From positions 1,424,001 through 1,488,000 of the forward strand of contig NC_087077.1 of assembly GCF_026151205.1 (NCBI RefSeq): 64,000 nt of DNA, read 5' to 3'. Under the pieces are notes generated by a model. That model made no database searches and was not told the DNA's origin. It worked only from the letters and a program-made list of their open reading frames with translations. Shown here piece after piece: positions 2,942 through 59,516 of this stretch (within the stretch, counting starts at the first letter, position 1; each line of letters begins with the position of its first letter). The position numbers were made by a program, and so were the translations under genes. Origin of the DNA: Bolinopsis microptera (lineage: Eukaryota > Ctenophora > Tentaculata > Lobata > Bolinopsidae).

Positions 2942-5900
2942 GTCATAAAATCCCGTCACGAACGTCTGGTGGTGGAGGTGTTGGAAAGTCTGAAGTTTTA
3001 CGTAAAGAATCACGGAGAGATAATGGAGCATCTTTCCTGGGACGCCATGTTGACGGTTATAGAAGACATTGTCAATCAGGTTATAATGGAGTAACATGTT
3101 TTGTGCTTATCGAACTGATTTTATGATAAGTTATATTTTATGATAAGTAATGGTTGTAACGAAATGGACATTGAATCCAAATACGATGCTTATTATAACT
3201 AATAATAAGTATCTTAGTAAATGTCCATTTCGTAACAACAAGGTATTGTGAGACGACGAATCGTATTACATGTATAATATCATATTAGTTAAATGAAGAT
3301 GGAGCGATTGTAAAACCCTCGCTTGCACACCGAACACCCAGTAAATAACTACTTTTAAAACTACTGACTCTAATCTGACCTCAAAATTCTACAATTCAAA
3401 TCATTCAAGTACAAAGGGAAGCAAATACCCAAAATTCGACGTACATGCATATATATATATATATCAGATCTATTTATAACAGGGACAAAAGGAAATCGCG
3501 GCATGTACGGAATCGCGATTTTTCCCATTATATGCGACAAATTTTATGTATAGTTTAATGTATAGTCTGTTAAAATTCGCGGTATCGCGATTTTTGGCCA
3601 AAATAATCGCGAAATCCTTTTGTCCCTGATTTATAACCTACGAAACAAAGCAAATAACGGTGGCTAACAATGCTGGGCAGAGTCACCTACATTAGCTTAT
3701 ATATCTGTTTTCTGAGTCCAGGGCCAGGACGCTAATGATATTAGCTGTACTCGTGTATCTGGTCATGCAATCACTCTCGTGACTTGCATACACTCAATAA
3801 TGGCACCTCGGTAATGACCATATTGTGTGTATATTAGGATAATTATGATTAATTATTTAAATGCTTTTGGTTTTTTCATAATTTTGAGTGCTTTATGATT
3901 CTGATGCAGATGATTGATGGACAATAAAGCTATTGTCTTTAACAAAAGCGGCATATTTGTATAACCCATTTAAAAACTACTTGAAGATTACATCGCACTA
4001 TCTATATAAATGTATAATATATCTTCAATTTTAAGGATTGAAAAGTATATCTCCAAAATTCACTTAAAAATTCACTAACCACTCCCACTGTCCTCAGCAA
4101 AGTGAGCAGAAGTTCCAGAACAAGCAAGTGCTAGTACCGCTGAACTCTCTGCTGAGCGAGGCTGAGCGGCTGTACAGTCACCCTGACTTTATTAATTGCA
4201 AGGATAGGTTCTACGATATCATAGAGCTCTGTGTAGACGTCCGACCGGTCAGTAAAGTGGGGGGCAGGGGCGGGGGGGGGGGGGGAGGCGGGGGGAGGGG
4301 TCTCCAGGGGGGAGGGGTCTCCAGGGGGGAGGGGGGGAGGGGGCCGGGGGGGATTGGTTAGAGCAAAAAGACTATGACTCTTAAGCAAACCGAAAACAAG
4401 ATATGCCAGTCTCACAAATATGTTTTTAAGTTTATTCAACATAATATTATGTCCTTTGTTTAACTAAGGCTTACCAAAGCCGTTCATAGACTTGTTAGCT
4501 TTGACTCTTTGATCTATTCTATTCTTAGACACCGTCATCACACATTACAGCTGTGTTGCTATAATTAGGCTAGAGGTTTGGGGTGGGGTGGCTCCTCAAT
4601 GTTTCTCTGCTGCTCTCGGCAATATGAATTTGTACTTGGTATTGCATGGCAAAGTAAGTTTTTTCTGGGCTTCATTAGCTAGTAGTATTGCAGCATGGTT
4701 TGTAATATAAGGGGGAATTTGACTAAATAAATATGTCATGCATTCTTGTAGATTCAAATTACTAACACTTACTAACTTTATAAATAACCGTACAGATACG
4801 GTTATTTATAAAGTATATTATATACGAAAACCCCCAAGATCGAGTCAATAAACAACCTGATGGAGAAGAAAGTGCGTCTGATAGTTCCAGGAGTACTAAA
4901 CTGGTCAGATAATCTGGTTCAGTTCATGGAAGACTTTTACTACACCACCAGGCCGGAGTGGATCAGGATGAACGCGCTAGAGAAGTGCTGGGATGTTGTG
5001 GACCAGTTCTATGAACTGTACGAGGTAAGTAGTATACTACTGATGAGGTACGGACAGGGATGTAGGAAGCAGGTGGGGGGGGGGGTACGGACAGGGGTGT
5101 AGGAAGCAGGTGGGGGGGGGGGGGGGGGGTACGGACAGGGGTGTAGGAAGCAGGTGGGGGGGGGGTACGGACAGGGGTGTAGGAAGCAGGGGGGAGGCAG
5201 GGGTACGGACAGGGGTGTAGGAAGCAGGGGGGAGGCAGGGGTACGGACAGGGGTGTAGGAAGCAGGGGGGGGGGGGGGTACGGACAGGGGTGTAGGAAGC
5301 AGGTGGGGGGGGGGGGGGTACGGACAGGGGTGTAGGAAGCAGGGGGGAAGGCAGGGGTACGGACAGGGGTGTAGGAAGCGGGGGGGGGGGAGGCAGGGGT
5401 ATGGACAGGGGTGTAGGAAGCGGGGGGGGAGGCAGGGGTACGGACAGGGGTGTAGGAAGCGGGGGGGGGGGGGGGGGCTCGGCTGGGGAGGGGGGGGGGG
5501 GGGGGCAGGGGTGTAGGAAGCGGGGGGGGGCAGGGGTACGGACAGGGGTGTAGGAAGCGGGGGGGGGGGGGGAGGAGGCAGGGGTACGGACCACCAGGGA
5601 ATGTCTTAATGAAGCTGATTGCTTGAAGTGTTTTATTCTGTATTTTGTTTCGAGTTGGAACTTATAGTAATTTTACTCAATGTTAGATGAATAAACCAGA
5701 ATTTGCTGCGAATTAAGCTATTCAGGTCCCAATATCTCCCCAGAAACTCCCCTGAAACTCCCCAGAAATGTCCCTGAAACTCCCCTGAAACTCCCCAGAA
5801 CTATTATAGCGCTTTGTAATAACAACTCCCCCCCCCCCCCCCCCCCCCGTTCAGGAGGAGTTATTAGAGAAAGTTGTGCTGAAAGTACTGCAGTTAGTAC

Positions 5901-8900
5901 ACAACGACCCCAACACAGCGGTGAGACACAGGGCTGTACAGTTCCTGGTCAGGTTGTGTTACAGGTGTTATTCAGACAAGTTCTACCACATTGTCAACAT
6001 CATTCTCAAGGTACGTAATCAGTTGATTAGTTGGTGATCAGCTAATTAGTTTAGGATCTTATGGTGAATGTTTAATTCAGATTTTTGGTCATTTTAAAGA
6101 TAACAGTATTTCTTATCTCTTGAGTTTGTCACGTGATATTGAAATGAAAGTGTTGAAGAGTAATGTTACACGTGTTACACTGTTAACAAGTTAAGTTAAC
6201 ACTACAGCTAATCGTGCAAAGTACGGTGTACACGCCGCCACATTACGGAATTCCGCGGTAACTTTATCTCTTCCTTAACTGTATACAGTTTACTAGTTTA
6301 GGTTACGTATTCCTCCCTGTACTTCTTGTATTGTTGTAGTGCGGCGATGTTAACTGTTATCAGCTGTTTTGTTAGGTGATATCAGTAGTTGTAGTGTGGC
6401 GATGTTAACTGTTATCAGCTGTTTTGTTAGGTGATATCAGTAGTTGTACTGTTATCAGCTGTTTTGTTAGGTGATATCAGTAGTTGTAGTGTTATCAGCT
6501 GTTTTGTTAGGTGATATCAGTAGTTGTGTTAACTGTTATCAGCTGTTTTGTTAGGTGATATCAGTAGTTGTGCAGCAAAACGAGGAGAACGAGAGTATAC
6601 TCATCTGTGATGAACTCATCAATCTCTTCCTGCACAAGGTACTTTTATTCATTGTACTAATTACTTGAATTAGCCAGCAATTAGCCAGCAATTAGCCACA
6701 AGACAGCACAGAGCGAACCTATATAATAACAAGGTTCACCAACTCACCAGGTTAGGTGAAACACAGTCTGTGGTTGACTGGGATTGGAAATCCCGCCGAG
6801 ACAGGGATTGCATCCAGCCAAGTACTGCGATATGGTCCAAGCCGGCGGGATCCGGAATTTTGATAAAATTTCATGATGAAAATCAATAAAATAAAATGAT
6901 TGTCAAATTAAAACAGAACATTAAAAAAAATACAATTTATGATAACGTCACAACTTTTTAGAAGAACCAAGTTTCAAATATCTAATGACTATTTAACTAA
7001 AATACACAGAATAAAGCCGACAGTATTGAACAGACACGCTGCAACTGCTCCTATAATTGTAGGAACTTCACTTGCTATTTAACTAAAATACACAGAATAA
7101 AGCCGACAGTATTGAACAGACACGCTGCAACTGCTCCTATAATTGTAGGAACTTCACTTGCTATTTAACTAAAATACACAGAATAAAGCCGACAGTATTG
7201 AACAGACACGCTGCAACTGCTCCTATAATTGTAGGAACTTCACTTGCTATTTAACTAAAATACACAGAATAAAGCCGACAGTATTGAACAGACACGCTGC
7301 AACTGCTCCTATAATTGTAGGAACTTCACTTGCTATTTAACTAAAATACACAGAATAAAGCCGACAGTATTAAACAGACACGCTGCAACTGCTCCTATAA
7401 TTGTAGGAACTTCACTTGCTATTTAACTAAAATACACAGAATAAAGCCGACAGTATTAAACAGACGCGCTGCAACTGCTCCTATAATTGTAGGAACTTCA
7501 CTTGCTATTTAACTAAAATACACAGAATAAAGCCGACAGTATTGAACAGACACGCTGCAACTGCTCCTATAATTGTAGGAACTTCACTTGCTATTTAACT
7601 AAAATACACAGAATAAAGCCGACAGTATTGAACAGACACGCTGCAACTGCTCCTATAATTGTAGGAACTTCACTTGCTATTTAACTAAAATACACAGAAT
7701 AAAGCCGACAGTATTGAACAGACACGCTGCAACTGCTCCTATAATTGTAGGAACTTCACTTGCTATTTAACTAAAATACACAGAATAAAGCCGACAGTAT
7801 TGAACAGACACGCTGCAACTGCTCCTATAATTGTAGGAACTTCACTTGCTATTTAACTAAAATACACAGAATAAAGCCGACAGTATTGAACAGACACGCT
7901 GCAACTGCTCCTATAATTGTAGGAACTTCACTTGCTATTTAACTAAAATACACAGAATAAAGCCGACAGTATTGAACAGACACGCTGCAACTGCTCCTAT
8001 AATTGTAGGAACTTCACTTGCTATTTAACTAAAATACACAGAATAAAGCCGACAGTATTGAACAGACACGCTGCAACTGCTCCTATAATTGTAGGAACTT
8101 CACTTGCTATTTAACTAAAATACACAGAATAAAGCCGACAGTATTGAACAGACACGCTGCAACTGCTCCTATAATTGTAGGAACTTCACTTGCTATTTAA
8201 CTAAAATACACAGAATAAAGCCGACAGTATTAAACAGACACGCTGCAACTGCTCCTATAATTGTAGGAACTTCACTTGCTATTTAACTAAAATACACAGA
8301 ATAAAGCCGACAGTATTAAACAGACACGCTGCAACTGCTCCTATAATTGTAGGAACTTCACTTGCTATTTAACTAAAATACACAGAATAAAGCCGACAGT
8401 ATTGAACAGACACGCTGCAACTGCTCCTATAATTGTAGGAACTTCACTTGCTATTTAACTAAATACACAGAATAAAGCCGACAGTATTGAACAGACACGC
8501 TGCAACTGCTCCTATAATTGTAGGAACTTCACTTGCTATTTAACTAAAATACACAGAATAAAGCCGACAGTATTAAACAGACACGCTGCAACTGCTCCTA
8601 TAATTGTAGGAACTTCACTTGCTATTTAACTAAAATACACAGAATAAAGCCGACAGTATTAAACAGACACGCTGCAACTGCTCCTATAATTGTAGGAACT
8701 TCACTTGCTATTTAACTAAAATACACAGAATAAAGCCGACAGTATTGAACAGACACGCTGCAACTGCTCCTATAATTGTAGGAACTTCACTTGCTATTTA
8801 ATTAAAATACACAGAATAAAGCCGACAGTATTGAACAGACACGCTGCAACTGCTCCTATAATTGTAGGAACTTCACTTGCTATTTAACTAAAATACACAG

Positions 8901-11900
8901 AATAAAGCCGACAGTATTGAACAGACACGCTGCAACTGCTCCTATAATTGTAGGAACTTCACTTGCTATTTAACTAAAATACACAGAATAAAGCCGACAG
9001 TATTAAACAGACACGCTGCAACTGCTCCTATAATTGTAGGAACTTCACTTGCTATTTAACTAAAATACACAGAATAAAGCCGACAGTATTGAACAGACAC
9101 GCTGCAACTGCTCCTATAATTGTAGGAACTTCACTTGCTATTTAACTAAAATACACAGAATAAAGCCGACAGTATTGAACAGACACGCTGCAACTGCTCC
9201 TATAATTGTAGGAACTTCACTTGCTATTTAACTAAAATACACAGAATAAAGCCGACAGTATTAAACAGACACGCTGCAACTGCTCCTATAATTGTAGGAA
9301 CTTCACTTGCTATTTAACTAAAATACACAGAATAAAGCCGACAGTATTGAACAGACACGCTGCAACTGCTCCTATAATTGTAGGAACTTCACTTGCTATT
9401 TAACTAAAATACACAGAATAAAGCCGACAGTATTAAACAGACACGCTGCAACTGCTCCTATAATTGTAGGAACTTCACTTGCTATTTAACTAAAATACAC
9501 AGAATAAAGCCGACAGTATTGAACAGACACGCTGCAACTGCTCCTATAATTGTAGGAACTTCACTTGCTATTTAACTAAAATACACAGAATAAAGCCGAC
9601 AGTATTAAACAGACACGCTGCAACTGCTCCTATAATTGTAGGAACTTCACTTGCTATTTAACTAAAATACACAGAATAAAGCCGACAGTATTAAACAGAC
9701 ACGCTGCAACTGCTCCTATAATTGTAGGAACTTCACTTGCTATTTAACTAAAATACACAGAATAAAGCCGACAGTATTGAACAGACACGCTGCAACTGCT
9801 CCTATAATTGTAGGAACTTCACTTGCTATTTAACTAAAATACACAGAATAAAGCCGACAGTATTGAACAGACACGCTGCAACTGCTCCTATAATTGTAGG
9901 AACTTCACTTGCTATTTAACTAAAATACACAGAATAAAGCCGACAGTATTGAACAGACACGCTGCAACTGCTCCTATAATTGTAGGAACTTCACTTGCTA
10001 TTTAACTAAAATACACAGAATAAAGCCGACAGTATTAAACAGACACGCTGCAACTGCTCCTATAATTGTAGGAACTTCACTTGCTATTTAACTAAAATAC
10101 ACAGAATAAAGCCGACAGTATTGAACAGACACGCTGCAACTGCTCCTATAATTGTAGGAACTTCACTTGCTATTTAACTAAAATACACAGAATAAAGCCG
10201 ACAGTATTGAACAGACACGCTGCAACTGCTCCTATAATTGTAGGAACTTCACTTGCTATTTAACTAAAATACACAGAATAAAGCCGACAGTATTAAACAG
10301 ACACGCTGCAACTGCTCCTATAATTGTAGGAACTTCACTTGCTATTTAACTAAAATACACAGAATAAAGCCGACAGTATTAAACAGACACGCTGCAACTG
10401 CTCCTATAATTGTAGGAACTTCACTTGCTATTTAACTAAAATACACAGAATAAAGCCGACAGTATTGAACAGACACGCTGCAACTGCTCCTATAATTGTA
10501 GGAACTTCACTTGCTATTTAACTAAAATACACAGAATAAAGCCGACAGTATTGAACAGACACGCTGCAACTGCTCCTATAATTGTAGGAACTTCACTTGC
10601 TATTTAACTAAAATACACAGAATAAAGCCGACAGTATTGAACAGACACGCTGCAACTGCTCCTATAATTGTAGGAACTTCACTTGCTATTTAACTAAAAT
10701 ACACAGAATAAAGCCGACAGTATTGAACAGACACGCTGCAACTGCTCCTATAATTGTAGGAATCTCACTTGCTCTAGTGACAACCAAACCACTGAGCACT
10801 ATTCCCACTGCTTGTGATATAGATACGGAGAAGTTGAAAACTGCTGTAGATCGCTCAGCCAAGTTTCCGTCAGTTTTCACGCCCCACATTTCATACAAAC
10901 TGAATTTACTCATAATGGCTATGTTTAAAACTGCTGCGTTACCAATTCCAATAAAAACAGACCCTATTTCGAAAGAAGCTGGGAAGGCTAGAAACTCTGT
11001 GGTAGATCCAAAAGCTAAAATCATCCCGATATACAGGAACACATTTCCAATTAACATCACAAAGTTGGGTCTTACCCTCCCGCCTGCTACAAAACCCAGA
11101 ACAATACTTGAGATAAAGGAGAACACCACCATTAATGAGTTGAATAACACGGCTGTACCCAGAGACTTCCCCGTGAACTCCTTGATTCTTGTTGGGATGG
11201 CAAACAGGAGTAGAACAAAAGCAGTGTTGTTCAAAAACGCTGCGATGTCAGGGACGAAGAACACTATTTGCTGGATCCTATTCGGCTTTTCTTTCAGAAT
11301 CTTTCCATTTGCGTTAGCTCCCATATTTTTCGACAATACTCGATTTGAACTTGCCCCAATCTTAATTTTTCTTTGCATTCTTCCAATAAACGGAAGAAAA
11401 AATATGGGGATGATGTCGAAAACAGCAATAGCGAATCCAGTGAGCAACCATCCCCCTGTAATGTAGAGTTGTGCCCCAACGTTAATTGAAATGATGTTTG
11501 CTAGATGCATCGATCCACTGATAATAACCATTAGTTTCTTCTTGTCCGCCAAAAACAGATCCACAATCTCTCCCTGAGATATTTACGATAGCAAATTTAA
11601 GTTTTTGTCTTTTATTTTACATTTTCTTTTTTTAATTAATTGATTTTTTAAAATTTAAATTTTCGTCTTTAATTAAATCTTTATTTTTTTGCGTGAATCA
11701 GATAATTACTAACGAAATTAAACTCACCTGTAACATCACAAAGAACAGCCCAACACAAACGCCCTGTAAAGCCCTGCTAACTCCAATAACAGTGAACACC
11801 AGCGTTCCTCCTGGGTCAGTTTCTACCATTGCATCTCCTGCAGCCATTACGAAGTAGCACAACATTCTTCCCGTTGTCAGGATTAAACACCTTTTTGTAA

Positions 11901-14900
11901 GAGGGATGGTACGGAAGCCAGGTATAATGGGAACGATGTAGGGGCCGATGGCTGCGGTGAAAACCAAGGTTGAAACGGCTATAGTACCTGGAAAGAGATA
12001 AATTCTATAGAAATATCCATCTAATTGTGCTAGTTTAAGTTACAGATAAAAGGTTAAATGGCGTATACATTCAGATATAAATTGATAACCCCACCCCTCT
12101 CCCTGTTTCAGATATAAATTGATAACCCCACCCCTCTCCCTGTTTGCACGTACCAAATGTTTTATCTAGATTGTTCTCTGCAAGAAAATCGATGTAGAAC
12201 CCAGCGGTGTAAGTCCTTGCAATGAAAACTGTTCCATTACCAAAACAAGCAAATAGGACAATCAAAGCTAGCTCGCCACCTTTCAACTTTTGAACATTTC
12301 CTGTCAGATAACTGGGTTAACCATATTATACATATGTATAGTTATATATATCATATATATTATTATATATATATTATTATATATATATATTATTATATAT
12401 ATATTTAAAGTTCAATTGAGTCTTGATGATGAAAGGCTAGTTGCTGCGGCCCGGGCTCAATTTACTTTGAGCAAGAAAGCAATGTGTTGGATACGTAACA
12501 AAATGCTTTGTTATATATTATAAAGTACACTTTGAAAGTTTTACCTTGAGCCTGCGCCTCTTCTGCAGCTATTTTTTCTGAGGGGCCACTGTTACTTGGT
12601 TCCAAATTCAAGGCTCCTATCGCTGCATTGTTTGCTATTACCACTTCATCATCGTTTCCGTCCATTATAATCGGTTGTCACTATAATTTGGGGATGAGGC
12701 TTATAACTGCATCAAATGTGTAGATTTTTAAAGTCACATAACAGAATACAGAAACACGTACGAAAACTTGCAACCAAATACAAAAAGGTAACAACTGGTT
12801 TAAACCCAATACCAGAGAACTAGCTGGAGATAGAGCATGAGAGCGAAATAGTACTGGGAAAGAATAATTTTACTCGAAACTTTACTCAACAGTCGACACG
12901 TACCGAAGTTCGACAGGGGTGATTTCTGGCGAACTTTGGTTGTCAATCTACAGTACGTGTCGTAATACTACAGAGCAGATATAACAGTGAAATGTTCCAC
13001 ACTTTTTCACAATGTTTCTTCCTACTTATCCCAATGTCATTAACTTGAATTTTTTACTCGTACGAGTTTTGCTCAATTGTACAAATTTCATGCGACATTT
13101 ATACGAATGAGCAAAATGAGCTGTACATTTTATGTCGTACAAATTTTCTATTTTTAACCTTAATAAAATAAAAAGTAAAAATCCCGGTCGACCACTGTAC
13201 TGTCGTTTGCTACCCCTATGTCTTTAAGGAAATTGGTTTTTACCTAAATGACTTTGTTCTGAAAGTTGTCTAGGCCTTTTACCTTGGCTACAACTGATAA
13301 CCAAATATCATACTAATTACCGTTGACCAGAACAGAGAGAGAGAGAGAGAGAGAGACTAAATTATCATCTCGCAAATAGTTGAAGTTATCAAACTTTACC
13401 CCATTTTAAATAAACTATTTCAGGTATCCCGTACCCCCAGTACTTTAACCCATTTTAAATAAACTATTTCAGGTATCCCGTACCCCCATTTAAAATAAAC
13501 TATTTCAGGTATCCCGTACCCCCATTTTAAATAAACTATTTCAGGTATCCCGTACCCCCATTTTAAATAAACTATTTCAGGTATCCCGTACCCCCATTTT
13601 GAATAAACTATTTCAAGTATCCCGTACCCCCATTTTGAATAAACTATTTCAGGTATCCCGTACCCCCATTTTAAATAAACTATTTCAAGTATCCCGTACC
13701 CCCATTTTGAATAAACTATTTCAGGTATCCCGTACCCCCATTTTAAATAAACTATTTCAGGTATCCCGTACCCCCATTTTAAATAAACTATTTCAGGTAT
13801 CCCGTACCCCCATTTTAAATAAACTATTTCAGGTATCCCGTACCCCCATTTTGAATAAACTATTTCAAGTATCCCGTACCCCCATTTTGAATAAACTATT
13901 TCAGGTATCCCGTACCCCCATTTTAAATAAACTATTTCAGGTATCCCGTACCCCCATTTTAAATAAACTATTTCAGGTATCCCGTACCCCCATTTTGAAT
14001 AAACTATTTCAGGTATCCCGTACCCCCATTTTGAATAAACTATTTCAGGTATCCCGTACCCCCATTTTGAATAAACTATTTCAGGTATCCCGTACCCCCA
14101 TTTTGAATAAACTATTTCAGGTATCCCGTACCCCCATTTAAAATAAACTATTTCAGGTATCCCGTACCCCCAGTACTTATACCCATTTAAAATAAACTAT
14201 TTCAGGTATCCCGTACCCCCAGTACTTATACCCATTTAAAATAAACTATTTCAGGTATCCCGTACCCCCAGTACTTTAACCCATTTTAAATAAACTATTT
14301 CAGGTATCCCGTACCCCCAGTAGACACGCTCTCTTTATATTTGAGGGACTGATAAAGTTAGCTACTGGTTTCTACTCCCCTAAGTTTATCCCCCACTTCC
14401 ACTCCACTGGGCGCATCAGATTTAGGGTATGTTTATCTTGTGTCACCTATACTATACTAATGTAACGATTGAGTGATTGTCTATTAATAGCTGCATGATG
14501 TGCAATAAAAACTTCTATTCATCTTGTGTGCTATGGTATTAATTCCGATGCCTAGTAATACAAGTTTTTTTACGAAACCGTACGCGTACCCTACATCTGC
14601 ATATTATATATATGCATACTTTTGTAACATTAGATATTGCACGGTATTCAGCAATGGTTCATAATTATCATCTTTCTCAAATTACAGTTGTGTATTAATT
14701 CTCCTATTTCACTTTTTGTACTTTTAAAGTTTTACATATCAAGCCAGCTTTAAATCAAAATTTTACAATTTATGTCAATTCAGTAGAATCTAGATTCAAG
14801 TAGGTTTTTAAAACGAGCACTTAAAGATTATAAAGTTGTACGATAAAACATAATTGATAAAACATAGAGTCACAAAAGTGGAAAATGTACACCATTTGTA

Positions 14901-17900
14901 TCGGTTAGTTGGCAGTGCTTCAGTGTTACATTTAGAACCGTTACTTGCTAGTAATTTTATCATTTTAAAAACTGTCCAATTATTTGATTTTATACTTTTT
15001 TTCCATTTTTAACGCAGAACGGCTTATTTCAGATCCTGGAATGTCTGTGGCGGATATCAATGTCCAGCACGGGGGAGACTATTGTCTACCTCCCGAAAGA
15101 GGGTTCAAATAAACGCACTGTTTCCTGCCCTTTCATCAGAATATCAGTCGCTGACTCCTGTCTCCGCCCCCAGGAGGTTAGTTGCATATAACATAGTCTG
15201 TAAAACTCTTCAGGTAAAAAGTTGAGATTCTGTCAGAAATTGAGATCTAGATCTAGTTATGATTAAAAGTACCGAGATTAATCAATTATCTTGGCGATAG
15301 CAACACAAAATCTGGTCCAATTAATGACCATGCACCCAGGTAACTCCCTATAAGTTAGAGTTGGAGATCCCCACTGAAGCTACAGAGGACTACGGGTCAG
15401 TTGACTTACCGTATGAGCACGTGGATAATCTCATCTACCACTGTCTTAACAAGGTGAGAATTGTGGACCAACCAGGGTCCACCAACCAGGGTCCACCAAC
15501 CAGGGTCCACCAACCAGGGTCCACCAACCAGGGTCCACCAACCAGGGTCCACCAACCAGGGTCCACCAACCAGGGTCCACCAACCAGGGTCCACCAACCA
15601 GGGTCCACCAACCAGGGTCCACCAACCAGGGTCCACCAACCAGGGTCCACCAACCAGGGTCCACCAACCAGGGTCCACCAACCAGGGTCCACCAACCAGG
15701 GTCCACCTATAAAACGGGTATTATTGAGCAGGTTGGTGTGGTTTCACTTAAGTTAACTCTCGGAACTTGGTTAGTATTTTATTGTACCTACCGTTATAGG
15801 TGTAAATGTAGTTATGGTTTATCTAAAACCACAGAACATATTTTATACCACCTATTCTGTGACGATGGTCACTCTATAACCCCCTGCCCCCCCCCTCTAT
15901 AAACCCCCGCCCCCTCCCCCACTCCCCACCCGTTACTGTATATAGGGGGGGTGACATGTCTCCAATGTCTCCCGCACCTTATCTTTTCGAAAAAGACAAA
16001 GACATTGGAGACATTGGAGACATTGGAGACATTGGAGACACAGCTTTTGGAGACATTGGAGACATTGGGGACATTGGGGACACTGGGGACATTAGAGACA
16101 CAGCTTTTGGACACATTGGAGACATTTGGGACATTTGGGACATTGGAGACATTGGGGACATTAGGGACATAAAATGGATATTAGGGGCATTGGAGACATT
16201 GGAGACACAGCTTTTGGAGCCTCCTCCTCCTCCTCCTCCTCCTCCTCCTCCTCCTCCTCCTCCTCCTCCTCCTCCTCCTCCTCCTCCTCCTCCTCCTCCT
16301 CCTCCTCCTCCTCCTCCTCCTCCTTCTCCTCCTCCTCCTCAGCCCTCCTCAGTCGTTCTCCTCCTCCTCCTGAATCCTCCTCCTGGGTCCTCCTCCTCCT
16401 GGGTCCTCCTCCTCCTCTTCATCCTCCTCCTCTTCCTCCTCAATCATCAGTCCTCCTGATCCTCCTCAGTCCTCCTCCTCATCCTTCTCGTCAGTCCTCC
16501 TCCTCCTCCTCAGTCCTCCCCAAGTCCCCCTCCTCCTCAGTCCTCCCCAGTCCCCCTCCTCCTCCTATTCAGTCCTCCTCCTCCTCCTCCGTTCTCCTCA
16601 GTCCTCCTCCTTCTCAGTCCTCCTCCTGAGTCCTCTTCCTGAGTCCTCCTCCTGAGTCCTCCTCCTCTTCCTGAGTCCTCCTCCTCCTAGGTCCTTCTCC
16701 TCCTCCTCCTCCTCAGTCCTTTTCCTCATCCTCCTCATCCTCCTTCTTAGTCATCCTCCTCAGTCATCCTCCTCAGCCATCCTCCTCAGCCATCCTCCTC
16801 AGTACTCCTCAGTCCTCCTCCTCAGTCCTCATCCTTCTCCTTAGTCCCCCTCCTCCTCCTATTCACTCCTCATCCTCCTCCTCAGTTCTCCTGAGTCCTC
16901 CTCCTGAGTCCTCCTCCTGAGTCCTCCGCCTGAGTCCTCCTCCTAGGTCCTCCTCCTTCTCCTCCTCACTCCTCAGTCCTTCTCCTCCTCCTCCTCAGCC
17001 ATCCTCCTCAGTCCTCCTCCTCCTCAGTCCTCATCATCATCCTCCTCTTCAGTCCTCCTCCTCCTGGGTCCTCTTCCTCCTCTTCATCCTCCTCCTCTTC
17101 CTCATCAGTCCTCAGTCCTCCTCCTCATCCTTCTCGTCAGTCCTCCTCCTCCTCAGTCCTCCCCAGTCCCCCTCCTCCTCCTCCTATTCAGTCCTCCTCC
17201 TCCTCCTCCTCAGTTCTCCTCAGTCCTCCTCCTTCTCATTCCTCCTAAGTTCTCCTCCTGAGTCCTCCTCCTGGGTCATCCTCCTCCTAGTTCCTCCACC
17301 TTCTCCTTCTCCTCCTCAGTCCTTCTCCTCCTCCTCCTCCTCCTCAGTCATCCTCCTCAGTACTCCTCAGTCCTCCTCCTTCTCAGTCCTCCTCCTTCTC
17401 AGTCCTCCTCAGTCCTCTTCCTGAGTTCTCCTCCTCCTCCTCCTCCTGAGTCCTCCTTCTGGGTCCTCCTCCTCCTAGGTCCTCCTCCTTCTCCTCCTCA
17501 GTCCTACTCCTCCTCCTAAGTCCTCTTCCTCCTCCTCCTCCTCCTCTTCCTCCCTCTCAGTCATCCTCCTCAGCCATCCTCCTCAGTCCTCCTCAGTCCT
17601 CATCCTCCTCCTCAGTCCTCCTCCTGGGTCTTTCTCCTCTTCATCCTCCTCAGTCCTCAGTCCTCCTCCTCAGTCCTCCTCCTCATCCTTCTCGTCAGTC
17701 TTCTGCATCCTCAGTCCTCCCCCAGTCCCCCTCCTCCTCCTCCTATTCAGTCCTCCTCCTCCTCAGTTCTCCTCAGTCCTCTTCCTTTTCAGTCCTCCTG
17801 AGTCTCCTGCTTCTCTTCCTCCTGAGTCCTCCTCCTGGGTCCTCATCCTCCTAGGTCCTCCTCCTTCTCCTTCTCCTCAGTCCTTCTCCTCCTCCTCCCT

Positions 17901-28289: not shown

Positions 28290-28375
28290 GATAGGGTGGG
28301 GGGCCGGGGGGGGGGGGGGGTTTGGAGCTGGTAGGGGGGCCGGGGGGGGGGCAGTTTGGAGCTGGTAGGGGGGAA
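28290..28375 (+). repeat. G-rich duplicated unit after GMF stop
   Basis: Two copies of GGTAGGGGGGCCGGGGG...TTTGGAGCT lie 25 bases after the GMF stop codon. Confidence 0.85.
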
Positions 28376-31532: not shown

Positions 31533-31568
31533 TTATTTGAATAAATATTTATTTAAATCATTTATATC

Positions 31569-45800: not shown

Positions 45801-48800
45801 CGTGTTCCTGTAACGGTGTTACAATTAGTCTGAGTGGTTCTGGTAGTTCCTGATAAACACCTCCTCCATCTTGCTGCTCCATTGTATTGTGTTCCTGTAA
45901 CGGTGTTACAATTAGTCTGAGTGGTTCTGATAGTTCCTGATAAACACCTCCTCCATCTTATTGCTCCATTGTATCGTGTTCCTGTAACGGTGTTACAATT
46001 AGTCTGAGTGGTTCTGGTAGTTCCTGATAAACACCTCCTCCATCTTGCTGCTCCATTGTATTGTGTTCCTGTAACGGTGTTACAATTAGTCTGAGTGGTT
46101 CTGATAGTTCCTGATAAACACCTCCTCCATCTTGCTGCTCCATTGTATTGTGTTCCTGTAACGGTGTTACAATTAGTCTGAGTGGTTCTGGTAGTTCCTG
46201 ATAAACACCTCCTCCATCTTGCTGCTCCATTGTATCGTGTTCCTGTAACGGTGTTACAATTAGTCTGATGGTTCTGATAGTTCCTGATAAACACCTCCTC
46301 CATCTTGCTGCTCCATTGTATCGTGTTCCTGTAACGGTGTTACAATTAGTCTGAGTGGTTCTTGTAGTTCCTGATAAACACCTCCTCCATCTTGTTGCTC
46401 CATTGTATTGTGTTCCTGTAACGGTGTTACAATTAGTCTGAGTGGTTCTGATAGTTCCTGATAAACACCTCCTCCATCTTGCTGCTCCATTGTATCGTGT
46501 TCCTGTAACGGTGTTACAATTAGTCTGAGTGGTTCTGGTAGTTCCTGATAAACACCTCCTCCATCTTATTGCTCCATTGTATTGTGTTCCTGTAACGGTG
46601 TTACAATTAGTCTGAGTGGTTCTGGTAGTTCCTGATAAACACCTCCTCCATCTTATTGCTCCATTGTATCGTGTTCCTGTAACGGTGTTACAATTAGTCT
46701 GAGTGGTTCTGATAGTTCCTGATAAACACCTCCTCCATCTTGCTGCTCCATTGTATTGTGTTCCTGTAACGGTGTTACAATTAGTCTGAGTGGTTCTGAT
46801 AGTTCCTGATAAACACCTCCTCCATCTTATTGCTCCATTGTATCGTGTTCCTGTAACGGTGTTACAATTAGTCTGAGTGGTTCTTGTAGTTCCTGATAAA
46901 CACCTCCTCCATCTTGCTGCTCCTTTGTATCGTGTTCCTGTAACAGTGTTACAATTAGTCTGAGTGGTTCTTGTAGTTCCTGATAAACACCTCCTCCATC
47001 TTATTGCTCCATTGTATCGTGTTCCTGTAACGGTGTTACAATTAGTCTGAGTGGTTCTGATAGTTCCTGATAAACACCTCCTCCATCTTGCTGCTCCATT
47101 GTATCGTGTTCCTGTAACGGTGTTACAATTAGTCTGAGTGGTTCTGATAGTTCCTGATAAACACCTCCTCCATCTTGCTGCTCCATTGTATTGTGTTCCT
47201 GTAACGGTGTTACAATTAGTCTGAGTGGTTCTGATAGTTCCTGATAAACACCTCCTCCATCTTATTGCTCCATTGTATCGTGTTCCTGTAACGGTGTTAC
47301 AATTAGTCTGAGTGGTTCTGATAGTTCCTGATAAACACCTCCTCCATCTTGCTGCTCCATTGTATCGTGTTCCTGTAACGGTGTTACAATTAGTCTGAGT
47401 GGTTCTGGTAGTTCCTGATAAACACCTCCTCCATCTTGTTGCTCCATTGTATCGTGTTCCTGTAACGGTGTTACAATTAGTCTGAGTGGTTCTGATAGTT
47501 CCTGATAAACACCTCCTCCATCTTGCTGCTCCATTGTATTGTGTTCCTGTAACGGTGTTACAATTAGTCTGAGTGGTTCTGGTAGTTCCTGATAAACACC
47601 TCCTCCATCTTATTGCTCCATTGTTTTGTGTTCCTGTAACGGTGTTACAATTAGTCTGAGTGGTTCTGGTAGTTCCTGATAAACACTTCCTCCATCTTAT
47701 TGCTCCATTGTATTGTGTTCCTGTAACGGTGTTACAATTAGTCTGAGTGGTTCTTGTAGTTCCTGATAAACACCTCCTCCATCTTATTGCTCCATTGTAT
47801 CGTGTTCCTGTAACGGTGTTACAATTAGTCTGAGTGGTTCTGATAGTTCCTGATAAACACCTCCTCCATCTTGCTGCTCCATTGTATCGTGTTCCTGTAA
47901 CGGTGTTACAATTAGTCTGAGTGGTTCTGGTAGTTCCTGATAAACACCTCCTCCATCTTATTGCTCCATTGTATTGTGTTCCTGTAACGGTGTTACAATT
48001 AGTCTGAGTGGTTCTTGTAGTTCCTGATAAACACCTCCTCCATCTTGTTGCTCCATTGTATCGTGTTCCTGTAACGGTGTTACAATTAGTCTGAGTGGTT
48101 CTGGTAGTTCCTGATAAACACCTCCTCCATCTTGCTGCTCCATTGTATTGTGTTCCTGTAACGGTGTTACAATTAGTCTGAGTGGTTCTGATAGTTCCTG
48201 ATAAACACCTCCTCCATCTTGCTGCTCCATTGTATCGTGTTCCTGTAACGGTGTTACAATTAGTCTGAGTGGTTCTGGTAGTTCCTGATAAACACCTCCT
48301 CTATCTTGCTGCTCCATTGTATCGTGTTCCTGTAACGGTGTTACAATTAGTCTGAGTGGTTCTGGTAGTTCCTGATAAACACCTCCTCCATCTTGCTGCT
48401 CCATTGTATCGTGTTCCTGTAACGGTGTTACAATTAGTCTGAGTGGTTCTGGTAGTTCCTGATAAACACCTCCTCCATCTTGCTGCTCCATTGTATTGTG
48501 TTCCTGTAACGGTGTTACAATTAGTCTGAGTGGTTCTGGTAGTTCCTGATAAACACCTCCTCCATCTTGCTGCTCCATTGTATTGTGTTCCTGTAACGGT
48601 GTTACAATTAGTCTGAGTGGTTCTGATAGTTCCTGATAAACACCTCCTCCATCTTGCTGCTCCATTGTATCGTGTTCCTGTAACGGTGTTACAATTAGTC
48701 TGAGTGGTTCTGGTAGTTCCTGATAAACACCTCCTCCATCTTGCTGCTCCATTGTATTGTGTTCCTGTAACGGTGTTACAATTAGTCTGAGTGGTTCTGA

Positions 48801-51800
48801 TAGTTCCTGATAAACACCTCCTCCATCTTATTGCTCCATTGTATCGTGTTCCTGTAACGGTGTTACAATTAGTCTGAGTGGTTCTGGTAGTTCCTGATAA
48901 ACACCTCCTCCATCTTGCTGCTCCATTGTATTGTGTTCCTGTAACGGTGTTACAATTAGTCTGAGTGGTTCTGATAGTTCCTGATAAACACCTCCTCCAT
49001 CTTGCTGCTCCATTGTATTGTGTTCCTGTAACGGTGTTACAATTAGTCTGAGTGGTTCTGGTAGTTCCTGATAAACACCTCCTCCATCTTGCTGCTCCAT
49101 TGTATCGTGTTCCTGTAACGGTGTTACAATTAGTCTGATGGTTCTGATAGTTCCTGATAAACACCTCCTCCATCTTGCTGCTCCATTGTATCGTGTTCCT
49201 GTAACGGTGTTACAATTAGTCTGAGTGGTTCTTGTAGTTCCTGATAAACACCTCCTCCATCTTGTTGCTCCATTGTATTGTGTTCCTGTAACGGTGTTAC
49301 AATTAGTCTGAGTGGTTCTGATAGTTCCTGATAAACACCTCCTCCATCTTGCTGCTCCATTGTATCGTGTTCCTGTAACGGTGTTACAATTAGTCTGAGT
49401 GGTTCTGGTAGTTCCTGATAAACACCTCCTCCATCTTATTGCTCCATTGTATTGTGTTCCTGTAACGGTGTTACAATTAGTCTGAGTGGTTCTGGTAGTT
49501 CCTGATAAACACCTCCTCCATCTTATTGCTCCATTGTATCGTGTTCCTGTAACGGTGTTACAATTAGTCTGAGTGGTTCTGATAGTTCCTGATAAACACC
49601 TCCTCCATCTTGCTGCTCCATTGTATTGTGTTCCTGTAACGGTGTTACAATTAGTCTGAGTGGTTCTGATAGTTCCTGATAAACACCTCCTCCATCTTAT
49701 TGCTCCATTGTATCGTGTTCCTGTAACGGTGTTACAATTAGTCTGAGTGGTTCTTGTAGTTCCTGATAAACACCTCCTCCATCTTGCTGCTCCATTGTAT
49801 CGTGTTCCTGTAACAGTGTTACAATTAGTCTGAGTGGTTCTTGTAGTTCCTGATAAACACCTCCTCCATCTTATTGCTCCATTGTATCGTGTTCCTGTAA
49901 CGGTGTTACAATTAGTCTGAGTGGTTCTGATAGTTCCTGATAAACACCTCCTCCATCTTGCTGCTCCATTGTATCGTGTTCCTGTAACGGTGTTACAATT
50001 AGTCTGAGTGGTTCTGATAGTTCCTGATAAACACCTCCTCCATCTTGCTGCTCCATTGTATCGTGTTCCTGTAACGGTGTTACTATTAGTCTGAGTGGTT
50101 CTGGTAGTTCCTGATAAACACCTCCTCCATCTTGCTGCTCCATTGTATTGTGTTCCTGTAACGGTGTTACAATTAGTCTGAGTGGTTCTGATAGTTCCTG
50201 ATAAACACCTCCTCCATCTTATTGCTCCATTGTATCGTGTTCCTGTAACGGTGTTACAATTAGTCTGAGTGGTTCTGATAGTTCCTGATAAACACCTCCT
50301 CCATCTTGCTGCTCCATTGTATCGTGTTCCTGTAACGGTGTTACAATTAGTCTGAGTGGTTCTGGTAGTTCCTGATAAACACCTCCTCCATCTTGTTGCT
50401 CCATTGTATCGTGTTCCTGTAACGGTGTTACAATTAGTCTGAGTGGTTCTGATAGTTCCTGATAAACACCTCCTCCATCTTATTGCTCCATTGTATCGTG
50501 TTCCTGTAACGGTGTTACAATTAGTCTGAGTGGTTCTTGTAGTTCCTGATAAACACCTCCTCCATCTTGCTGCTCCATTGTATCGTGTTCCTGTAACAGT
50601 GTTACAATTAGTCTGAGTGGTTCTTGTAGTTCCTGATAAACACCTCCTCCATCTTATTGCTCCATTGTATCGTGTTCCTGTAACGGTGTTACAATTAGTC
50701 TGAGTGGTTCTGATAGTTCCTGATAAACACCTCCTCCATCTTGCTGCTCCATTGTATCGTGTTCCTGTAACGGTGTTACAATTAGTCTGAGTGGTTCTGA
50801 TAGTTCCTGATAAACACCTCCTCCATCTTGCTGCTCCATTGTATCGTGTTCCTGTAACGGTGTTACTATTAGTCTGAGTGGTTCTGGTAGTTCCTGATAA
50901 ACACCTCCTCCATCTTGTTGCTCCATTGTATTGTGTTCCTGTAACGGTGTTACAATTAGTCTGAGTGGTTCTGATAGTTCCTGATAAACACCTCCTCCAT
51001 CTTGCTGCTCCATTGTATCGTGTTCCTGTAACGGTGTTACAATTAGTCTGAGTGGTTCTGGTAGTTCCTGATAAACACCTCCTCCATCTTGCTGCTCCAT
51101 TGTATTGTGTTCCTGTAACGGTGTTACAATTAGTCTGAGTGGTTCTGGTAGTTCCTGATAAACACCTCCTCCATCTTGCTGCTCCATTGTATTGTGTTCC
51201 TGTAACGGTGTTACAATTAGTCTGAGTGGTTCTGATAGTTCCTGATAAACACCTCCTCCATCTTATTGCTCCATTGTATCGTGTTCCTGTAACGGTGTTA
51301 CAATTAGTCTGAGTGGTTCTGATAGTTCCTGATAAACACCTCCTCCATCTTGCTGCTCCATTGTATCGTGTTCCTGTAACGGTGTTACAATTAGTCTGAG
51401 TGGTTCTGGTAGTTCCTGATAAACACCTCCTCCATCTTGTTGCTCCATTGTATCGTGTTCCTGTAACGGTGTTACAATTAGTCTGAGTGGTTCTGATAGT
51501 TCCTGATAAACACCTCCTCCATCTTGCTGCTCCATTGTATTGTGTTCCTGTAACGGTGTTACAATTAGTCTGAGTGGTTCTGGTAGTTCCTGATAAACAC
51601 CTCCTCCATCTTATTGCTCCATTGTTTTGTGTTCCTGTAACGGTGTTACAATTAGTCTGAGTGGTTCTGGTAGTTCCTGATAAACACTTCCTCCATCTTA
51701 TTGCTCCATTGTATTGTGTTCCTGTAACGGTGTTACAATTAGTCTGAGTGGTTCTGGTAGTTCCTGATAAACACCTCCTCCATCTTGCTGCTCCATTGTA

Positions 51801-54800
51801 TTGTGTTCCTGTAACGGTGTTACAATTAGTCTGAGTGGTTCTGGTAGTTCCTGATAAACACCTCCTCCATCTTATTGCTCCATTGTATTGTGTTCCTGTA
51901 ACGGTGTTACAATTAGTCTGAGTGGTTCTGGTAGTTCCTGATAAACACGTCCTCCATCTTATTGCTCCATTGTATCGTGTTCCTGTAACGGTGTTACAAT
52001 TAGTCTGAGTGGTTTTGGTAGTTCCTGATAAACACCTCCTCCATCTTGCTGCTCCATTGTATCGTGTTCCTGATGTTTGTAACGGTGTTACAATTTGAAC
52101 ACGAACAGCCAATTAATGATGTATTTTGCATCATCTCTGGTCCTTGGAGTGTAGCTAAAAAATATTTATTATATTACCCTAAGCCCTTAGTGGGTTTTTA
52201 AAGAACGATAATAATCATAATCTTTTGTTCGGGTTCCAACTCACCGTACATCGGTCCAGTTATTATACACGTCTAAAGGAATGCTGATGACTGAAGCAGC
52301 TAGACTCACGTTACCTTTGTACTTATCCGGCATGTGGCGTGTTGCTATCCTGAGAGTTATCTTAGTGAGCTAAACAGGCGTGTTTCTATCCTGGCAGTTA
52401 TCTTAGTGAGTTACAATCATACTCTCCACTGTGTTTATGCAGCTTCAATTGTCGTGGATTGTATCGTAAACTCACTTCCATACATTTCGAATGTTGATCC
52501 CCGTCACTGGTAATTTGTAAAAATAGTTGTTAAAGCAACGTTTGAATATGCATATATTTACATGCTTTATAAAGTGAAATGTACCACCCACCCACACACC
52601 TGTTACCCTCATTATCCTGGAGAGGGTTACTGAACACATCATAGTACCAGTTAGTCATGTTACTGTCCCACACGTGCTCACTGTACCTCTTCTTAGCTTC
52701 ACTCTGTAGAGTCTCCAGAGCTGCTAGGGCTCCTTTAAACTCGTGTGCCGTTATTTTACTTACAAACTCTCCTGATAATGGAAAAGTTAAACTCGTGTGC
52801 TGTTATTTTACTTACAAACTCTCCTGATAATGGAAAAGTTAAACTCATGTGCTGTTATTTTACTTACAAACTCTCCTGATAATGGAAAAGTTAAACTCGT
52901 GTGCTGTTATTTTACTTACAAACTCTCCTGATAATGGAAAACTGTGTGTTGAAACATTTTGTAACGTTATGTAAATGTATTAGTTCATTGACCATTCTTA
53001 GGAATCACAATTTCTTAAAAAATTCTTCAGAAATTACTACGTCATCAATGCTTTTCATACAAGTTAAAACAAAGTCTTCATGTTATGGAGCCAGGGTTTG
53101 TACTGGCTTTTACCCGCTTTTCACCATATTTTTAAAGTCGAAACAGGAGATTAAAAGTACCTAATTTGTCCATATCAACATCAAACGGTTCAGTCTGCTG
53201 TTCGTAAAGCCCCAAAATAGCTTCGCTGTTAATGGTAGAGTCAAACAGCCCCAGAATCTTACTACTAGTCATCATATTCCCACTAGTTCTCCTCACCATC
53301 ATCACAGTCACTATTATCACAATCTTCAGAGACATTCTGAGATGAGCTACAAAATGTATCCTCAAACTTAAACTGCGTGCTAGAAATTGTGCTGCCTTAA
53401 AGTGGAAATTCCCGAGGAACCTAACAATTCAAAAACTAAACGGTTCATAAACGGCGTGGAAATCACAGGATTGTGAATAGCTTCCTCGTGACAGGCTTGC
53501 GAACAGCCATTACCAAGTCGTATTGTACACGTTTCACACAGTTACCTTGCAGTGAGAGGTCTAATTATCACGGAAAATAATGGCGGGTACAACTTACTAG
53601 TTACTCCTGGTAGCAGATGGGTTTACAGGGGAAATGGTTTATTATATATGAGCTGTATTATGAGGGGTTGTGTGCTGTATTATGAGGGGTTGTGTGGGGG
53701 GTTATGAGGGGTTATGAGGGGTTGTGTGCTGTATTATGAGGGGTTGGAGGGGTTATGAGGGGTTGTGTGCTGTATTATGAGGGGTTGTGTGGGGGTGTGA
53801 GGGGTTATGAGGGGTTGTGAGCTGTATTATGAGGGGGTGTGAGGGGTTATGAGGGGTTATGTGGGGGTTGTGTGGGGTTATGAGGGGTTATGAGCTGTAT
53901 TATGAGGGGTTATGGGGGTATTATGAGGGGTTGTGTGCTGTATTATGAGGGGTTGTGAGGGGTTATGTGCTGTATTATGAGGGGTTATGAGCTGTATTAT
54001 CTTATTATGAGGGGTTGTGTGGGGTTATGAGGGGTTGGAGGGGTTATGAGGGGTTGTGTGCTGTATTATGTGGGGTTATGAGGGGTTGTGTGCTGTATTA
54101 TGAGGGGTTGTGTGCTGTATTATGAGGGGTTGTGTGGGGTTATGAGGGGTTATGAGGGGTTATGAGCTGTATTATGAGGGGTTGTGTGGGGTTATGAGGG
54201 GTTATGGGGGTATTATGAGGGGTTATGAGCTGTATTATGAGGGGTTGTGTGGGGTTATGAGGGGTTGGAGGGGTTATGAGGGGTTGTGTGCTGTATTATG
54301 AGGGGTTGTGTGCTGTATTATGAGGGGTTGTGTGGGGTTATGAGGGGTTATGAGGGGTTATGAGCTGTATTATGAGGGGTTGTGTGAGGGTGTGGGGAGA
54401 TTGTCAGAAGGTGTTAAACTCTATTTCTATGAATGCGAATGCCATTTTAGGCAGTCGCTGTAAAATTCGGGAGAGTATTTCAAAATTGTTGGCATTACAG
54501 GTTGGTCCGTTAAAATGGGAAACATTGTACGGGATTTAACTAGTACTACAAAAGTCAAAAAGATCTGTGTTTCTTCGAATTGAAGTTAATAAGTGTTGAG
54601 ATGGAGTTAACCCACATTTTGTGTGTTATGATCCTTTAATCAGATATAGTTACAGATAACAGCCTTAGATAACAGCAGATTTAACGATGTACTATAACCT
54701 CATAACTATGGTTATGGTTTACGAGTTACAGAGTATAAATATCGTCAAGCTACTGCCATTTTTAATCCACAGTTCACAGACCGGTGATACAAGTAATCAC

Positions 54801-57800
54801 GGAGCGATAATATAGCGAAGCAATATCGAGTAGGTCGAACAATATCGGTAGTAATCCAAAAAACACTCAGTAAGGACTCGTAAAGATTGAGATTAAACTC
54901 GACAGAGCCGATATAAGGGCCTAACATAGTAAAGCACTGTTGGTATTTGTGGTCCGTGAACACCGCATACTCTTATAAAAACGCCCCCCAATCTGATCAC
55001 CACTAAACTTATGAGATTATACAATGAAATCCCGATTGTAGGCGCTATCATCTCAATTAAATCGCACCAATTCTTGTGACAATAGAGAGCTGTTGTCAGA
55101 GGTTGTCCGACCCATCATCTCATCTCAGCTGGTGGAGGAGGTGCATGTGAAGGGGGGGGGGGAGGGGGTGCATGTGAAGGGGGGGGGGAGGAGGAGGTGC
55201 ATGTGAAGGGGGGGGGGGGGGGGGAGGTGCATGTTAAATACGAGATGCTCCTGTGGCACCCTTGTCAATCCGAGAGATCAAAGAAAAATATCTAAAAAGT
55301 GGCTGCAAGCAGCAACAAGCGATTCTATTATTTCTAACTGCTATGGATTCAAACTGTTGTTAGGTTATCTAGAAATTAATGATTGGTGACCAATCTTGTC
55401 ACAGTCTTGATTTGATTTGATACACAAATTCACGTATCAGTTAGCTTTGTTCGCAGAATTGGATTGACAACATATTTTCTGGAGCGGTTAAGACAAGAAA
55501 ACAATAGAATAATAAAAGGGCGAACAATAGCCGAATTAGACAGAGAATTGCGTTGATATAACCATTTACCAGTCAATTGTCAGCCTAATCAACCCATCTA
55601 CTCGATCGCTGGGCTTGTCTGGGCTTGTCTGGGCTTGTCTGGGCTTGTCTGGGCCAAAATATCCCACAATAGCAGCAAACTACTTATTAGAAATTTGATG
55701 TTATCGATCGCATTATATGTATTTTCACAATGCTCTGTGTCACCTTGGAATCACGAAGCTGCACAATGGTCACGTAAAGAAGGAAAGACAGAAGAAATTT
55801 GTCAGTTCTACTCTAGTTGAATTATTATTTACCGTGAGTCTGATCGAACGTCGCATGTCCGCTTTCATCCCCTTCCATCCCCTCAGTGATAACGTAACAT
55901 GTGAAAACCACTAACTCTTTACAAGCTGATTAAAACTTGCAGACAATTTACCGGTGCTTACCATTCAGTTTCAAAACTACTTGCTTGATGTTCCTTGCAT
56001 CTTATGAATTTAAATCTCGCCAATTTCACTGACCTCTTTAAATGAGGGCTCCAACAAATTTGGTCCTAATTTCAAAACAGTTCGGTTATTTGAATTATGC
56101 AGCACCTCGTCAGCCCTAAGGGATACCCCCGTGTTAATCACGTGCACTTTGAAGCAATCTCCCGGGCAACCCACGTGCTTTATGTAATCACGTGATCACG
56201 TGTGATATAGTCACGTGACCTCCGTCACAGGGTTAAGCTGGTACAGTTATTGAAATATTAAAGATGCTCTTCTTTTGCGGAGGAAGCAACTAAATATGGT
56301 TAAATGGCGATGATATGCTTGTGTATAGCTACCGCGGTAATTTTCTTTTGAAAATCAAGCCTTTACATTCATACATTGTAGAGGCCCAATGCAATGGGAA
56401 TCTTATAACGCAAGCTAATGTATGTGGTACACAAATTTGAATGCGGGTACTGGATAGTCGGATACAAATTTCTTCAGAACTGGCCATACCACATTACACC
56501 TAAGATTAGGTCCCATTAATCTTTTTGAGATAGATACCAGCATTTGAGCATTCTGCCAATTCAGGGAACAATCCATGAAATTACTAACTTGCATAAATAT
56601 AATATTCCTATATTGTTATATTAACACTATCTATTTTCAGACAAATGTGCATCATATCTGGATGTGATTACTTGGACCGACTTCCCAAATGTGGGCTAAA
56701 GACAGTTCACAAGCAGTTTAGGAAGTTTAAAAACGTCGACAAGGGAATAAAAGCTTTTATCTCGAATCATAACATGAAAAACGTTGGCAGTATCGATACA
56801 AAGGAGTATTATGAGAGGTTTTTAGAGGTGAGACGATATTTAGAAATAGTTATGCTTGTTTTTCAGTTACATTGTTTGCAGACCTTATGTTCGCAAATTC
56901 ATCGTACTAAAGAAGTACCCTTTGAAACGTTCGCATTTACCTTACGATATTACACAGCTTTTTTCAGAGTTATTCTTTATTCAATGGAAGTGGTCTGAAA
57001 AGTAAAAGTATCCGATTATAGTTTATAACCAAATAATATATTGCTCCAAGATTTAGAGCAAAACTTCCAAATTAACCGTGGCACTCCCAGGCAGATCAGG
57101 CGTTCAAACACCACCTGGTATTCGACCCTGCCAGCCAGACAGTTAAACCCCTTAACCCTCTACCTGCCCACCTGGATGTAGCAGACCTTCCTTTTCTTGG
57201 TTAGTTTATAAAATTGCCAGCTCCTTCCTTTTCTTGGTTAGTTTATAAAATTGCCAGCTCCTTCCTTTTCTTGGTTAGTTTATAAAATTGCCAGCTCTAC
57301 TTTTGACTTATTATGAAAATTGAATTTTGTAACTGTAAGACATATAACATAAGTCAATACCTTTTATAAAGGATTTGATAGAATGTCTACCTTAGTTTCG
57401 GAAATCCTGGAACTTCTTGTCCATCTAGCCGGTATAATATTCTGCAATAATGGCAATATGTTCTGGGAATCAAGTTCACAGCTCCTCCTGTAGTTTAGCA
57501 TTCAAACGTTAAAAGTTCAAACTGTCAAGATGGTACGAGATCTCTCAATGCAATCACCGTGCTAACGTCAAACTTGATCGCCGTGATAGAGCGCGAAGAA
57601 TGAAATCATCCCTCATAGTCCTGCGTTCTGCAAGTTAACTAAAGGGAACGACTTGAAAGGGGACCACTTTAATTTGAGGGGCAAATAAACATCAAAGGTT
57701 TGATGTTAGGATTTTAATTGAATTTCGGTAGAGGTATTTAAGATCGAATCAAATTCTGACTTCTTCAGAACAACTCTGGTTGGCAATAATGTCAGGATTT

Positions 57801-59516: not shown

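Follow-up and report, generated by a model that had tools for sequence, protein, structure and literature searches.

Probable edge-anchored minisatellites at exon-intron junctions of the ctenophore Bolinopsis microptera

Tandem arrays in a 64-kb window of the Bolinopsis microptera genome (the whole stretch of DNA analysed, contig NC_087077.1, positions 1,424,001 to 1,488,000) were located at exon edges more often than expected by chance; 13 of the 24 arrays tested spanned a splice junction or lay within 25 bp of one, compared with 3.35 expected (p 3e-8). The arrays are probably edge-anchored minisatellites of the kind called mirages in amphioxus, in which exon-edge DNA was tandemly duplicated and then amplified while the exon-proximal copy remained functional. 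Six window arrays copied a genuine edge, including four acceptors (TSC2, TRAPPC3 and two in alpha2/delta), an EXO1 donor and the coding end of a transporter. Seven further arrays lay on the intron side of a junction, 4 to 22 bp away from it. An earlier note on this DNA had claimed that arrays begin at or copy splice junctions or coding ends; all ten arrays that it named were found by TRF and fit the curated exon order.

The window contained genes for TSC2, TRAPPC3, EXO1, an alpha2/delta subunit and an MFS-like transporter, and their exons were curated by eye, with canonical GT-AG sites and an unbroken reading frame required. The TRAPPC3 reading was a complete protein of 181 residues, and that of EXO1 had 740 residues with a single terminal stop. 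When compared with solved structures, TRAPPC3 (E 1.1e-65), EXO1 (E 7.8e-82) and alpha2/delta-1 (E 1.6e-21) showed homology that was gapless over the array-bearing exon 3/4 junction, exon 1/2 junction and junction at 38570, respectively. Pieces of TSC2 matched the Pfam families Tuberin, Rap_GAP and DUF3384; the transporter matched MFS_1 with a score under the curated cut-off. The exon at 14304 was covered by no Pfam family and was given to TSC2 on frame and order alone. The TSC2 frame shifted between the exon that begins at 18851 and an open frame at 19335-21530, with no evident intron at window 19330-19350. Two genes were nested, the transporter within a TSC2 intron and alpha2/delta within an EXO1 intron. 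For the transporter introns, the distal boundaries were placed approximately, close to the gene-finder picks. On the minus strand of TRAPPC3 intron 3 (25608-26411), the translation, judged by eye, resembled a fragment of a retrotransposon reverse transcriptase. An Rfam search of the window gave no matches.

Table 1. Window arrays at or near exon edges. Distances start at the terminal base of the intron (first or last), and array edges called by TRF may be off by a few bases.
Feature	Position	Strand	Found by	Description
TSC2 donor 4248 array	4259..4353	+	TRF	G-rich, 17-bp unit, 11 bp inside intron
TSC2 donor 5025 array (next intron after 4248)	5047..5584	+	TRF	G-rich, 37-bp unit, 22 bp inside intron
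TSC2 acceptor-side array	6333..6571	+	TRF	40-bp unit, end 4 bp before exon 6576-6638
Transporter coding-end array	6989..10773	-	TRF	86-bp x 44; unit is last 27 codons plus stop
Transporter donor 12153 array	12070..12145	-	TRF	37-bp x 2.1, 8 bp inside intron
AT-rich array	12325-12408			24 bp from junction; included in enrichment test
TSC2 acceptor array	13393..14322	+	TRF	36-49-bp unit, 24 copies of TTTCAG/GTATCC plus exon start; real exon 14304-14426
TSC2 donor 15454 array	15467..15707	+	TRF	Perfect 14-bp x 17, 13 bp inside intron
TRAPPC3 donor 22824 array	22831..24521	+	TRF	G-rich, from 7 bp; fills most of intron 1
TRAPPC3 exon 4 acceptor array	26426..27026	+	TRF	11 copies including exon start; real acceptor 26998
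EXO1 donor 34006 array	34012..34521	+	TRF	13-bp x 39, 6 bp inside intron 1
alpha2/delta large acceptor array	38502..52072	-	TRF	87-bp unit, 155 copies; real exon start 38570
alpha2/delta exon 2 acceptor array	52735..52941	-	TRF	52-bp x 4; real exon 52600-52771, acceptor 52771
EXO1 exon 7 end plus donor array	57186..57297	+	TRF	37-bp x 3; real donor 57200

Many copies of the junctions retained their splice signals. The unit of the large alpha2/delta array joined 18 bp of intron end to 69 bp of exon start, and CAG/G was present in all 155 copies. The signal was likewise kept in 11/11 TRAPPC3 copies, in 21/24 TSC2 copies (AG/GT) and in 27/30 copies (TGGTAA) of an array at L019, a locus beyond the window. 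The transporter array ran downstream beyond the real coding end. Within the large alpha2/delta array, 36 types could be told apart among 154 units, and long runs of types recurred in order, pointing to block duplication and past length changes. Differences between codon positions among the variants of this array (minor counts 26, 72 and 170) were set aside because the sites were few.

When the copies were translated, reading continued into the exon body from the last copy only in the TRAPPC3 array (of 11) and in the alpha2/delta exon 2 array (of 4). Four of the 24 TSC2 copies were translated; the last read through and the other three did not. In the large alpha2/delta array, 152 of the 154 units contained an in-frame stop. 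Surplus copies would thus truncate the protein in the four translated acceptor arrays of the window, for TSC2 in part. With read-through confined to the exon-proximal copy in the window arrays, that copy would be the one productively usable, as exon definition would choose. The exon-proximal site is probably the one used, by exon definition, and the homology at the junctions suggests the same. These decoys could instead be functional, with intact unproductive sites tuning output through unproductive splicing and copy number under selection; the acceptor preserved in every large alpha2/delta copy and the early stops of the translated decoys in TRAPPC3, alpha2/delta and part of TSC2 are what this account would predict. 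However, recent homogenisation explains the intact sites equally well, and at L032, an acceptor array of three copies, all three read through in frame, showing that decoys need not truncate. We regard selection for decoys as improbable.

A second alternative is that G runs located after donors, in the sense strand, fold into G-quadruplexes or give rise to R-loops, break and so seed arrays there. The arrays at 4259, 5047 and 22831 were G-rich, as was half of the unit at 12070 on the sense strand, and the accessible part of one report describes G4 motifs as about 3-fold enriched near splice junctions (PMC9065059). However, 13 of 17 edge arrays had a GC content of at most 0.5, and G-rich instability is an unlikely source. 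A 2-kb pyrimidine-rich array with TCCTCAG units precedes a TSC2 acceptor (window 16000-18391), with inverted arrays (AGACATTGG and its complement) on both sides; a 13-bp TCCTCAG array similar to it was seen on C1 (L018:7618-10000).

TRF returned 75 rows for the window, which were merged into 31 arrays with a period of at least 8. For the null, each array was placed at random within its own intron. The 24 arrays tested in the window were those of the 31 that fell in curated introns, from an intron list made by the analyst; the arrays at 160-210, 902-2503, 6989-10773, 28298-28373, 30832-30889, 31527-31558 and 63521-63566 were left out. So was a long TSC2 intron that runs between L011:7172 and window 2941 with its inner exons unplaced; it held about 10 arrays, one of them 6 bp from the donor. 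In a 104-kb region with 27 arrays in 30 curated introns, 16 arrays spanned a junction or lay at most 25 bp from one (expected 4.38, p 1.4e-9), and 10 lay within 10 bp (expected 1.85). Spanning arrays have no exact null, and the test was repeated without the six of them. Ten of the remaining 21 arrays in the 104-kb region were within 25 bp (expected 3.23, p 4e-5) and four were within 10 bp (expected 1.36, p 0.04). In a cleaner version of the test, counted per intron in the homology-supported genes and again with spanning arrays dropped, the numbers were 8/12 in the 104-kb region (expected 2.28, p 9e-5) and 6/10 in the window (expected 1.74, p 1e-3), upholding the claim that, for this region, placement at junctions exceeds chance. 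When gene-finder junctions replaced the curated ones in the 104-kb region, 12 of 58 arrays were within 25 bp compared with 3.35 expected, the finder having been trained on the window. Arrays made up 70% of the bases in 28 curated introns, or 47% without the alpha2/delta giant; 12 of the 28 were array-free, with a median length of 162 bp. The window region was unusually array-rich and lies 1.4-1.5 Mb from a contig end. Array coverage was about 44% in the window, about 31% in its flanks (L009-L012) and about 10% in 16 regularly spaced loci on C1 and C2 (L013-L028).

An excess at edges could also arise through survivorship, where duplications occur anywhere, or in GC-richer exonic sequence, and those at edges persist since an intact copy remains. 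GC was 0.455 in exons and 0.351 in non-array intron, and in the 104-kb region the mean GC of edge arrays was 0.47 compared with 0.39 for other arrays. Arrays at coding ends (window 6989-10773; L019 9393-9569) have no splice site, which also fits survivorship. However, survivorship does not predict the non-exonic arrays that start a few bases into introns, and non-spanning arrays were still enriched at edges. We consider survivorship possible, and less probable than edge-anchored duplication. For the latter, we infer that the birth of arrays, rather than their retention, is biased to edges, most clearly at 5' splice sites.

Junction arrays were also present beyond the window, on C1, C2 and C7. 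Four more edge arrays were located in the 20 kb upstream. In the first, an exon ending CAAAG/GTAACC was followed by a (GTAACCAG)n array that held further copies of the exon end. The second contained a copy of a TSC2 acceptor, with the 8-bp GTAACCAG repeat between the copy and the real acceptor; the other two were an 11-bp array 13 bp after one TSC2 donor and a 9-bp array 6 bp after another. The two sites with the 8-bp unit, L011:1659-2491 at the donor of one gene and L011:4006-4233 at the TSC2 acceptor, lie about 2 kb apart. Read by eye, L019 carried a donor array with 30 copies of exon end plus GTAAGT, and L025 one with 12 copies of exon end plus GTAAGG. The gene with the donor array at L019 had a second array at its stop codon. 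Gene pieces at L019, L025 and L032 had no Pfam match.

An automated test used a home-made gene finder on 21 loci of 10 kb, of which 16 were evenly spaced along C1 and C2 and five came from a random list. With arrays wholly masked, including the exon copies inside them, no excess was observed; 2 of 111 arrays were within 25 bp of a junction compared with 2.76 expected. The test was then changed so that terminal array copies may count as exon, stop codons and two adjacent stretches were added, and exons longer than 1500 bp were dropped as likely transposon frames. Periods under 8 were excluded from both tests. The changed version gave a mixed outcome. For junctions only, 4 of 117 arrays were within 5 bp (expected 0.90 or 0.57 depending on the score cut, p 0.012 or 0.003) and 6 of 117 within 25 bp (expected 4.04 or 2.64, p 0.22 or 0.05). 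With stop codons included, 6 or 5 were within 5 bp (expected 0.97 or 0.63, p 4e-4), and within 25 bp there were 10 compared with 4.40 expected or 9 compared with 2.88 (p 0.011 or 0.002). Because the test was altered once the data had been inspected, these p-values are weaker than they look. Of the four junction matches within 5 bp, two, both at L030, were long-period exon duplications; L030:6796-9914 held tandem duplications of about 300-470 bp containing a cysteine-rich exon-like block. A stop-codon array at L024 was short and AT-rich.

Tandem pairs of splice motifs on the same strand were counted over both strands of the whole genome, with the reversed motif as the sole control. The donor motif AGGTRAGT occurred 19232 times, compared with 15615 for its reversal. 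Its pairs numbered 2608 compared with 258 at a gap of 4-34 (about 10-fold), and 3891 compared with 552 at a gap of 35-65. A second donor variant, AGGTATGT, gave 2215 pairs at a gap of 4-34 compared with 56 for its reversal, about 40-fold as a raw ratio unscaled by singles. Donor-motif pairs thus exceeded their controls 7- to 40-fold. However, pairs of the acceptor core TTTCAGG showed no excess genome-wide, with 1416 per 60072 occurrences compared with 1106 per 30153 for the reversal, indicating that the genome-wide signal is a donor-motif signal. Survivorship does not predict such a donor-only excess. The earlier claim that the phenomenon recurs genome-wide therefore stands in part: it is borne out by the junction arrays on other sequences and by the donor pairs, and not by the acceptor core or the first 21-locus test. 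Pair counts may be dominated by a few large or shared arrays. Among the matches listed, the AGGTRAGT pairs (gap 4-34) in the first 3.54 Mb of C1 were at 8 places, two of them with a shared 32-bp unit, and the AGGTATGT pairs in the first 17.4 Mb were at 11. In the 358 kb examined in context, there were no pairs of AGGTRAGT or of its reversal, so the genome-wide donor-motif arrays were not viewed in gene context.

A dispersed satellite family with a donor-like motif, or an assembly error, might produce a similar picture. Distant arrays at C1:36576-37703 and C1:761375-762150 have one common 32-bp unit with a consensus donor motif; this shared unit, and the 8-bp unit found twice in L011, are as expected of a dispersed family. 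However, units differed among the window junction arrays, and in the arrays read the exon part was that of the local gene. The published Bolinopsis assembly was built with PacBio and Hi-C according to the accessible text of PMC10232365, which argues against assembly error. Both are very improbable explanations. A single transposon family, sought as a shared unit sequence, was rejected for the window, where unit sequences were distinct between junction arrays, in agreement with the earlier note.

In TRAPPC3, EXO1 and alpha2/delta, homology indicates that the exon is the conserved part. In TRAPPC3 and alpha2/delta, the exon portion of the unit shows homology to human proteins over the array-bearing junction, which argues that exon edges seeded these arrays. 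Intron and exon sequence occur together in the units, so the template would be DNA or unspliced RNA. The arrays lie in genes, and a possible source named earlier was reverse-transcribed splicing intermediates, with pre-mRNA or lariat intermediates copied and reinserted at the locus. This origin is disfavoured: donor and acceptor junctions alike occur unspliced in the units read, these units remain at their source locus, and no spliced unit was seen among the arrays read. We consider it the most improbable of the accounts weighed here. Local tandem duplication at the DNA level is the simplest route. In the edge-anchored process that we favour, a short piece of genomic DNA from an exon edge would be tandemly duplicated; the piece may be the end of an exon with its donor, the end of an intron with its acceptor, a coding end, or the bases immediately after a donor. 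The duplicated piece would then be amplified via unequal exchange or replication slippage. Function would stay with the copy adjoining the exon body, and the other copies would be intronic and spliced out, or would lie behind the stop and go untranslated. An array whose surplus copies are removed in this way would be free to grow and may become most of an intron. A bolder proposal, which we offer tentatively and hold to be doubtful, is that ctenophore genomes have an active transcription- or splicing-linked process whose tandem duplications favour DNA at 5' splice sites, leaving introns that are largely arrays of copied edges and splicing that ignores tens to hundreds of intact decoys.

A full-text literature search, with most subscription papers outside its reach, found no reports of such arrays in ctenophores. 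In the accessible text of the Hormiphora genome paper (PMC8527503), 13% of the genome was found by TRF and many genes were nested, and the word minisatellite is absent; repeat terms gave nothing about introns in the accessible parts of PMC11797021, PMC13231562 and PMC10232365. Ordinary intronic minisatellites are alike in repeat anatomy and likely in turnover by unequal exchange; however, position here was tied to exon edges, and some units copied the edge. Introners are dispersed families carrying splice sites that create introns. Both they and the present arrays are repeated sequence with splice sites, but the units here were local and tandem. Intron gain by tandem duplication of AG/GT-containing sequence was described by Rogers, by Zhuo 2007 and by Gao and Lynch 2009, as named in the accessible text of PMC3087553. 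A splice signal is duplicated in both cases; however, the present arrays sit in existing introns.

The earlier note knew of no named system of this kind. A named precedent exists in the amphioxus mirages, which, in the accessible text of PMC3087553 and PMC3902484, are tandem direct repeats over exon-intron boundaries, donor and acceptor alike, in Adh3, the globin genes BflGb6 and BflGb9, and PGBD5, with units of 10 to about 160 bp and many copies that retain AG/GT signals. Unaffected mRNA splicing and somatic or length instability are further features of mirages. Likewise, repeats in Bolinopsis spanned the exon-intron boundary at window 13393, 26426, 38502, 52735 and 57186 and at L011, L019, L025 and L032; both boundaries were duplicated (donors in EXO1 exon 7, L019 and L025; acceptors in TSC2, TRAPPC3 and alpha2/delta), and AG/GT signals were retained in many copies. 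Unlike in amphioxus, the host belongs to a different phylum, several cases occurred in one 64-kb window, copies numbered up to 155, and further arrays abutted rather than spanned the junction or copied a coding end. If our reading is true, lancelet mirages would extend to a lineage that has been proposed as the sister group of every other animal, a direct route for intron lengthening would be suggested, and a tandem-duplication bias at splice sites would become measurable genome-wide. The arrays would also let splice-site choice be tested in a natural setting, as with the 155 acceptor copies, apparently only one of them in use. The spanning arrays fit the definition of mirages and the abutting and coding-end arrays widen it; what is new here is the ctenophore host, the scale and the arrays that start a few bases inside introns.
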